Shown here piece by piece: positions 34,723-59,676 of a DNA stretch of 64,000 bases. Positions within the stretch are counted from its first letter, which is position 1; each line of letters opens with the position of its first letter. Source of the stretch: Spirochaetota bacterium (GTDB lineage Bacteria; Spirochaetota; UBA4802; UBA5550); assembly GCA_017999915.1 (NCBI GenBank), contig JAGNKX010000001.1, forward strand, positions 879,440 through 943,439, in the 5' to 3' direction. The position numbers were made by a program, and so were the translations under genes. Under the pieces are notes generated by a model that saw nothing but the letters and a program-made list of their open reading frames with translations, did no database searches and was not told the DNA's origin.

Positions 34723-35370
34723 ATGAGATATACGGTGGTTAAGCAATTTTCAAACGGGGTTATTGATAATATTTTCAGTTTTATCTTCAAATGGGTCGAC
34801 TGCGGGAAGATGTTCGTTGAATTCCTCTGGTCCTTTCTTGAGATATGGATCGCGTTTTTCCTTATATTCTACAATGCCTTCATGTACGTGTATTACCTGT
34901 TCCTGTTCTTCATAGACCGGGGGGCCGAGTCGAGCGCCGGCATGTTCAGGCTCAGGGGATCCTACAGCGGTTCGTCGACGATACCGAAGTTCGAGATTAC
35001 CCGCGCTCCCAGCTCGGTGCCGCCGCAGTACGGCTCCCAGGTCGTTACAAAAACGGCCGAAGCGGTGGGCAAAACCGCCGGAGCGGTGGCCACTAAAACC
35101 GCCGAGGCCGCGTCGCAGACCCTGAACGCCTTCAGGTCCGGCGGGTCCGCCGCCGCCCGGGGCGTGAAGCAGTCCTTCTTCAAGGAACTTCTGAGCGCGC
35201 TGGTCGATTTTTTCAAGTTCATCGGCGGCATCCTGGCAATGCCCTTCAAAAAGCTGGTGCTTCTCTTCGATCGCGGCAAGGAAAAGCGGAACATGCGGCA
35301 AGCCGAATCGGATTCCAGCAAGAGCCTCATAGACGAATACATCAAGGAATACGAGCAGAAGCGGCGGTAA
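34723..35370 (+). CDS. Membrane protein with alanine/threonine-rich linker
   Basis: The protein has 215 residues with GGAGG before the ATG. One or two hydrophobic helices (about 35-70) are followed by a linker of repeated KTA/TAEA motifs (EAVGKTAGAVATKTAEAASQ). A second hydrophobic-amphipathic region and a basic, coiled C-terminus complete it. The linker repeats suggest an extended helix. No family recognised. Confidence 0.68.
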   Translation: MRYTVVKQFSNGVIDNIFSFIFKWVDCGKMFVEFLWSFLEIWIAFFLIFYNAFMYVYYLFLFFIDRGAESSAGMFRLRGSYSGSSTIPKFEITRAPSSVPPQYGSQVVTKTAEAVGKTAGAVATKTAEAASQTLNAFRSGGSAAARGVKQSFFKELLSALVDFFKFIGGILAMPFKKLVLLFDRGKEKRNMRQAESDSSKSLIDEYIKEYEQKRR

Positions 35371-35787
35371 TCAGTATACCAGCTGGACCACGATCTCTCT
35401 CTTGCGCGGCCTGGTGTCGCAGTCGATGAGCACGACCTGCTGCCAGGTCCCGAGGGATGGCTCTCCCCGCACCACGGGCACCGTCACCGACGGCCCGATA
35501 AGCGCCGCCTGCAGGTGGGCGGAACCGTTGTCATCATGCCAGGTGTCGTGATGATGGTAGTGCCCCCCGTAGGGAACAATCCTCTCCAGAAAGATGTCGA
35601 TATCCTTCTTCAGTCCCGGCTCATATTCAATGGTGGTGATGCCGGCCGTTGACCCGGCCGAAAAGACCGTGGCGATACCATCGGTGACGCCGCTCCTGCT
35701 TATTATCTTTCTCAGCTCGGAGGTCAGGTCCACAACATCGCGATTGCCCCTCGTGGAAACCGCTATGTAATCAGTTTTCACAGTCAT
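35371..35787 (-). CDS. YjbQ/UPF0047 family protein
   Basis: The protein has 138 residues from the ATG at 35787, matching the family length; GGAGG is 9 bp upstream. GGHYHHHDTWHDDNGSAHLQ is the metal-binding histidine motif, and ITTIEYEPGLKKDI and GTWQQVVLIDCD are further hallmarks. YjbQ proteins have thiamin phosphate synthase-like activity in some tests, but the true role is unclear. A longer in-frame N-terminus has no start signal. Confidence 0.92.
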   Translation of the reverse strand: MTVKTDYIAVSTRGNRDVVDLTSELRKIISRSGVTDGIATVFSAGSTAGITTIEYEPGLKKDIDIFLERIVPYGGHYHHHDTWHDDNGSAHLQAALIGPSVTVPVVRGEPSLGTWQQVVLIDCDTRPRKREIVVQLVY

Positions 35788-59358: not shown

Positions 59359-59411
59359 TGATTCATGTATTAATTATCATTCAGGAATATTGTCAACACT
59401 ATTTGATCGCA

Positions 59412-59456
59412 GCGCGCTCTTATTCCCGGAGCAAAGCTCCGGGAATAAGAGCGCGC
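59412..59456. repeat. 45-bp perfect inverted repeat (21-bp stem)
   Basis: GCGCGCTCTTATTCCCGGAGC and its exact complement are separated only by AAA. A DNA or RNA hairpin of this quality is rare by chance. There is no downstream T-run. It lies in the divergent spacer. Confidence 0.9.
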
Positions 59457-59471
59457 AAAACATTATGCGAC

Positions 59472-59502
59472 AAAATACCCCGTAGCCTGCTATGGGTATT
59501 TT
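59472..59502. repeat. Second hairpin in the same spacer
   Basis: AAAATACCC and GGGTATTTT pair, continuing inward as GTAG/CTAT with one bulged C. It begins 16 bp after the larger hairpin, so the two could act together. Confidence 0.6.
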
Positions 59503-59676
59503 ATGGCGGTTGCTTCAGGTTTTTATCATTGTGATGAAGGGTTCTATGGTTCCAGAGCTTTAAAAGAATTTTTTTATTGATTTTTTATTGCGCTAATTAT
59601 GTATATAAATCAGTTTAGCCGTGTCCAAATCATGGAAAGGGCGCATTCAGGGCGTGATACAGAGGGGATGCAGGTA

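Follow-up and report, generated by a model that had tools for sequence, protein, structure and literature searches.

What is a perfect 21-bp hairpin doing in the spacer between two divergent genes of a Spirochaetota bacterium? The stretch of DNA analysed here, referred to as the window, comprises 64,000 nucleotides of contig JAGNKX010000001.1. The spacer in question lies near its right-hand end, flanked by an oligopeptide ABC ATPase gene (ABC_tran plus oligo_HPY) on the minus strand and by a plus-strand gene whose protein has GlmU-type hexapeptide repeats, the divergent arrangement named in a first-pass annotation made from the sequence alone. The hairpin is exact, as that annotation had it, down to the AAA loop. 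Its stem is the longest perfect one in the window when loops of up to 10 are allowed, the runners-up reaching 14 bp, and across 30 randomised windows (first-order Markov) the longest perfect stem ranged from 8 to 11 bp per window and never exceeded 11 bp. The RNA fold of 59380–59540 has a z of −7.8. The second hairpin reported from the same spacer is also present, at approximately 59472–59502, with arms at 59467–59480 and 59494–59507 that are 86% complementary and a GC stem at approximately 59478–59496, followed by TATTTTAT. The accompanying statement that neither hairpin has a T-run is strictly correct, but hairpin 2, with its outer arms AAAATA/TATTTT, scored as terminator-like on the plus strand.

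The search for further copies that had been suggested as a check proved productive. BLAST with 59400–59510 against the genome that holds the window (5.46 Mb in 29 contigs, 99% complete) returned 42 matches. R2, a covariance model built from the right-hand part of 39 copies, marked 51 distinct places in the same genome, counted from match rows after reverse-strand palindrome matches had been excluded; the few lowest-scoring of these may be mere terminators. Two additional places have the left end, namely C9:123434, where the right part is broken, and C27:20283, where the left end is fused to the right terminus. The family has about 50 dispersed copies in this genome. Among other genomes of the genus, clear copies number two in G003 and one in G002, and no strong copies were found in G001, G004 or G005. 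Across 59 genomes, R2 had a match at E 0.001 or better in 12, strong only in G000 (the genome of the window), G002 and G003; the matches outside the genus are weak (≤26.3 bits) and resemble plain terminators. A 22-base core pattern gave 0 matches in viral contigs, and its only matches in genome contigs were to a pair of contigs from a same-genus MAG and to a single locus in each of two Paenibacillus genomes. We reject the Paenibacillus matches as family members and take them as chance because the palindromes are absent at the one locus viewed (L056); a Spo0A-box interpretation of the match was dropped. An attC/integron interpretation was abandoned as well, the copies lying outside cassette arrays and showing no ends of the form GTTRRRY, the motif expected there. 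As regards the double-stranded RNA processing substrate also suggested in the first pass, no Rfam family matched at its gathering score, and the only hits were two miRNA models far below gathering.

Comparison of the copies shows that the hairpins form the left and right ends of a single 97-bp mobile element (Table 1). The first-pass suggestion of a mobile element, in part or as a remnant, was right in kind, as is shown by the copy number of about 50, the empty sites and the insertions confined to particular lineages; it erred in treating the hairpins as two objects, and its limits of 59412–59502 fall a few bases short of the true unit. The family consensus, with slashes marking the ends of the element, is TTGAT / CGCAGCGCGCG-CAAA-CCCCGGAGC-TCT-GCTCCGGGG-ATGAGAGCGCGC-AAAACATTATGCGACA-AATA-CCCCGYAGC-TT-GCTGCGGGG-TATTTTAT /. 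The palindromes near the two ends, CCCCGGAGC..GCTCCGGGG on the left and CCCCGYAGC..GCTGCGGGG on the right, resemble each other, and in the family form the left palindrome begins 16 nt in and the right one stops 8 nt before the end. There are no terminal inverted repeats, the ends CGCAGCGC and TATTTTAT not being complementary, which rules out a classical MITE. The element is too short for a transposase and has no coding capacity; no reading frame of at least 100 aa runs across the core in 37 of 42 copies, with frames called crudely from fetched stretches. In most copies, hairpin 1 pairs only in two stems, the outer of 6 bp and the inner of 9 bp, with the bases CAAA, referred to below as the left guide, between them in an internal loop GCAAA/ATGAGA. 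TGCGA, within the conserved stretch that follows at 59457–59470, can pair with TCGCA at 59407–59411, and AAAACATTA is then unpaired. The pairing of hairpin 2 is kept through sequence changes (81.3% of cells paired versus 77.9% when shuffled, and 10 double changes versus 4.4).

Table 1. Coordinates of the element in the window, of an empty site in the window and of related palindrome loci
Feature	Position	Strand	Description
Target sequence left of element	59403–59407	+	TTGAT (C_L, core TGAT); host DNA outside the element; empty sites of relatives keep TRAT
Mobile element	59408–59504	+	97 bp, CGCA to TATTTTAT; ends taken from the empty sites of other copies and from internally deleted copies with both ends
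Hairpin 1 (left end of element)	59412–59456	+	Arms 59412–59432 and 59436–59456, 21 bp, 100% complementary, loop AAA
Conserved stretch AAAACATTATGCGA	59457–59470	+	Four of the 6 invariant columns of alignment A1 (39 copies)
Hairpin 2, right-end palindrome	59478–59496	+	Family form CCCCGYAGCTTGCTGCGGGG
Right terminus TTAT (predicted C_R)	59501–59504	+	
Empty site in window	35368–35375	+	TAAT/CAGT, uninterrupted at 35371/35372; the relative G003 has a copy after TGAT
Short TnpA loci with bracketing palindromes	L012:1451–1968, L013:1398–1875 (G000); L182:1450–1965 (G003); L181, L185 (G005)		

Evidence of movement comes from sites that are filled in one genome and empty in another. Such sites were sought for 17 loci including that of the window, of which four were clear, one was half clear (C8:149258, upstream side only) and the rest had diverged too far, found no match or were taken no further in alignment. 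One copy, on C88 of G003, sits at the stop codon of a gene, reading ..CGCTGAT/CGCA..TATTTTGT/CAGTATACC; the window has ..GGTAAT/CAGTATACC at this site, and G005 is also without the insert. The copy at C17:9684 is missing in three relatives, which read CCTGAT/TCAA (G005), AATGAT/TCAC (G004) and TTGAG (G003), and that at C1:503660 is missing in G003, where the sequence is AATTTGAT/GACAGATA. A 300-bp repeat on C2 contains the element in the host and lacks it on C91 of G003 (ATTTAAT/GAAGAA), with a second element-free copy of the repeat on C91 indicated by coordinates only. Insertion is the simpler reading of these differences because several relatives share the empty state wherever more than one could be compared. 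At the four clear empty sites, the element begins after TRAT and ends TTTTRT. Copies lie 3′ of a T(T)RAT sequence, which in most cases is TTGAT, and TGAT is present at 14 of 22 tabulated left ends; at the empty sites themselves the tetranucleotide varies, some having TGAT and others TAAT, while G003 has TGAG at C17. No target duplication is resolvable at the four loci beyond a possible 2-bp AT.

In the spacer that holds the window copy, the element is absent from G001, G002, G003 and G005, although divergence of the spacer prevents the junction from being fixed in these relatives. Another of the possibilities first raised for this locus, a conserved cruciform regulatory site, is unsupported: the same spacer, part of which these four relatives share, lacks the element in all of them. 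An AT-rich tract at 59563–59612 of the window (TTTTTTATTGATTTTTTATTGCGC), 5′ of the hexapeptide-repeat gene, is kept in the same four genomes, unlike the remaining spacer, and may be the promoter region.

IS200/IS605 transposition is characterised by insertion on the 3′ side of a short fixed sequence, by a target left unduplicated, and by ends that have subterminal palindromes and lack inverted repeats (PMC7290912, PMC5934647). We consider it very probable that the element is a non-autonomous single-strand DNA transposon of the PATE type that depends on a Y1 transposase supplied by another element. The repeat family, its insertions, target and ends, the lack of inverted repeats and of genes, the guide complementarity and the covariation at the left end are observed; the class of enzyme, a pathway through single strands and mobilisation in trans are inferred. 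In essence, a Y1 (HUH, single tyrosine) transposase supplied in trans would bind both subterminal palindromes on one strand and would cut immediately after the TGAT of the left flank and immediately after the terminal TTAT. The positions of the cuts would be set by pairing with the four-base guide that precedes each palindrome, CAAA on the left and AATA on the right. The excised circle would then enter 3′ of another TTGAT-like site, again without target duplication.

The four bases before the palindromes fit the code of IS608, CAAA with TGAT at the left and AATA with TTAT at the right. As described for IS608, C_L TTAC is matched by G_L AAAG and C_R TCAA by G_R GAAT, with pairs A+16:T−3 and A+17:T−4 (PMC5934647); guide-target pairing of this sort is called linear and cross complementarity in the REP literature (PMC8266576). 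The rule tested was c1:g2, c2:g1 and c4:g4, where c4:g4 is our own reading of the published IS608 sequences. It predicts CANA for TGAT and AANA for TTAT, and the family shows CAAA and AATA at the palindrome feet. At the left end of 22 copies, 53 of 66 predicted pairs are present compared with a shuffled mean of 47.0 (p 0.0016, a value that is optimistic because the table was read by hand and the copies are related by descent). Copies with a perfected, replaced or deleted left palindrome, the window copy among them, were left out of this table. Control registers gave p 0.18 (plain parallel) and p 1.0 (antiparallel), and the c2:g1 pair alone gave p 0.039. Matched guide changes are seen in the combinations TTAT with AAAA, TTAT with AAAT and TAAT with TAAA; three rows break c2:g1 despite a non-TGAT target (TTAT with CAAC, TTAT with CAAA and TAAT with CAAA). 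The right end, for which 29 of 42 copies were usable, has a consensus that fits, with 70 of 87 pairs present, and does not covary (p 0.62). We put forward only tentatively, and with more doubt than confidence, the notion of natural retargeting, in which copies within one genome would have shifted their target by mutating the DNA guide (CAAA/TGAT; AAAA or AAAT/TTAT; TAAA/TAAT). Provided that these copies truly inserted at new targets, rather than being changed by later mutation, the family would be a natural counterpart of engineered IS608 retargeting.

The search for a cognate transposase was negative: across six draft genomes of the genus, 26 Y1_Tnp loci were examined and not one has such ends within ~1.5 kb. 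Nor was an autonomous parent found next to 10 copies that have no left end, the nearest upstream genes looking by eye like ordinary host genes. The enzyme could instead be a RAYT (TnpA_REP) acting on a REP/REPIN-type repeat, rather than an IS200/IS605-like TnpA. Extragenic palindromes in tens of copies would suit such a system, as would the GTAG inside the stem of hairpin 2 and four further Y1 reading frames in the genome (134–212 aa), some of them of RAYT-like length. We regard this as unlikely. The GTAG is within the stem and not at its 5′ foot, and it is CAAA and AATA that precede the palindromes; no such palindromes lie beside any of the 26 Y1 genes examined; and the unit moves whole, with its ends and target fixed. 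In REP sequences, the tetranucleotide GTAG/GTGG is described as expected 0–2 nt before the stem (PMC6006769).

The possible AT at the junctions raises another option, a different recombinase that makes a 2-bp AT duplication, for example by an IS110-like mechanism, and the filled sites at C17:9684 and C1:503660 can indeed be read as TG-AT-element-AT. The C88 copy of G003, however, has AT on its left and GT on its right, and the guide-target complementarity and the paired subterminal palindromes would be left unexplained, so that we find such a recombinase quite improbable. We give almost no credence to a selected functional RNA (for instance a portable bidirectional terminator or 3′-UTR element) spread by duplication, for although hairpin 2 is terminator-like with its pairing preserved through changes (10 double changes versus 4.4) and several copies lie at stop codons, placement is near-random (14 of 42 copies divergent, 13 convergent and 15 co-directional, by crude reading frames), the copies share no promoter-like sequence upstream and the four relatives compared lack the element at the window locus. 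A transposon of the kind preferred here may nonetheless act as a terminator after insertion; hairpin 2 is terminator-like, and it may therefore affect neighbouring transcription.

The perfection of the hairpin that first drew attention is probably secondary to the PATE-type element itself. In the window copy, the left arm of hairpin 1 complements the right arm base for base and the guide CAAA is gone. The copy at C11:86806 has undergone the same arm conversion, and at C18:65870 the conversion is in the opposite direction, with the right arm copied from the left. The perfect left hairpin would thus be self-templated, template switching or self-templated repair of an imperfect palindrome being the likely cause. 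Because the left guide has been overwritten by arm conversion, the window copy is probably no longer mobile. Other copies are altered in different ways. Short copies without the left palindrome read TGATCGCAAAAC, a form that would fit deletion between the CGCA repeats that flank this palindrome, and the copies at C27:20283, C12:66330 and C4:73846, which have internal deletions, are fused inside the palindromes with both ends kept. In several copies (L031, L043, L044, L045, L050 and L144), the tip of hairpin 2 is swapped for a TCCCGATnnATCGGGA-like palindrome; these are possibly a subfamily, and the exact TCCCGATnnATCGGGA pattern was seen only within element copies in the 308 kb examined. The left palindrome of the C10:43878 copy (G000, L040:2924–2978) is replaced by a TTTAAA-centred one, like those found beside short TnpA genes, and this is a case of one mobile palindrome nested in another.

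Short IS200-type TnpA genes of the genus (113–126 aa in G000; Table 1) are bracketed by long perfect palindromes, many of them TTTAAA-centred (TCTGATAGGG..GGGGTTTAAACCCC..CCCTATCAGA), whose outer arms run into different sequences, as if inserting into the tips of existing palindromes. At L017:1432–1679, two long palindromes that share the core GGACAGAACAnTGTTCTGTCC lie beside the gene for a divergent Y1 protein or overlap it. Tandem repeats of up to 300 bp, with an element copy in each, are present at L025:2930–6400 (G000 C2:297829–301236) and L148, where they separate genes that by eye resemble toxin-antitoxin or Fic/AbiE-type modules.

An odd perfect hairpin can now be placed in a mobile family with known ends, a known target and a probable mechanism. 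There is a practical lesson in this for strong intergenic hairpins in environmental spirochaetes, namely to look for copies before calling them regulatory RNA. Furthermore, the variable guides, together with recent insertions for which empty sites exist, amount to a small natural data set on the evolution of DNA-guided target choice.

The family is newly seen, and the kind of element to which it belongs (PATE, IS200/IS605-like) is already known. A literature search limited to open-licence papers found no earlier report of the family, the nearest spirochaete case being the IS605 stem loops of Borrelia plasmids. As described, these are likewise hairpins without a transposase, some of them at the 3′ ends of genes, but they are single left or right stem loops that match a resident IS605, whereas the two ends of the present element travel as one unit, with no known parent resident in the genome (PMC2775950). 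REP and REPIN sequences, in the accounts compared, are also extragenic, palindromic, multicopy and thought to be moved by a Y1 enzyme; the present element differs in having no GTAG/GTGG foot, no RAYT flanked by repeats and a fixed orientation to TTGAT (PMC3733652, PMC8266576, PMC3116915).

The family also resembles two IS200/IS605 elements, ISDra2, which is reported to insert 3′ of TTGAT (PMC2806898), and IS608 (PMC5934647). With both, as described, the family shares a fixed tetra- or pentanucleotide target, subterminal palindromes, crossed-pairing guides and no duplication; it differs from them in being without tnpA or tnpB and in its palindromes and guides (CAAA and AATA), and its left linker is 15 nt compared with 19 nt in IS608, as derived from guide positions +16 to +19 (PMC5934647). 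The PATEs of the haloarchaeon Haloquadratum walsbyi are described as having palindromes akin to the ones in an IS605-type transposon and, for some, an origin by deletion (PMC3119063). The spirochaete element differs in its host, in measuring only ~97–105 bp with the two palindromes making up most of it, and in that no related IS605-type transposon was found near the 26 Y1 genes of the genus. In the terms of the same account, however, it shares with the H. walsbyi PATEs near-terminal palindromes without terminal inverted repeats or target duplication, a length too short for a transposase, a copy number in the tens, core deletions between repeats and foreign palindromes inside the near-terminal ones (PMC3119063).
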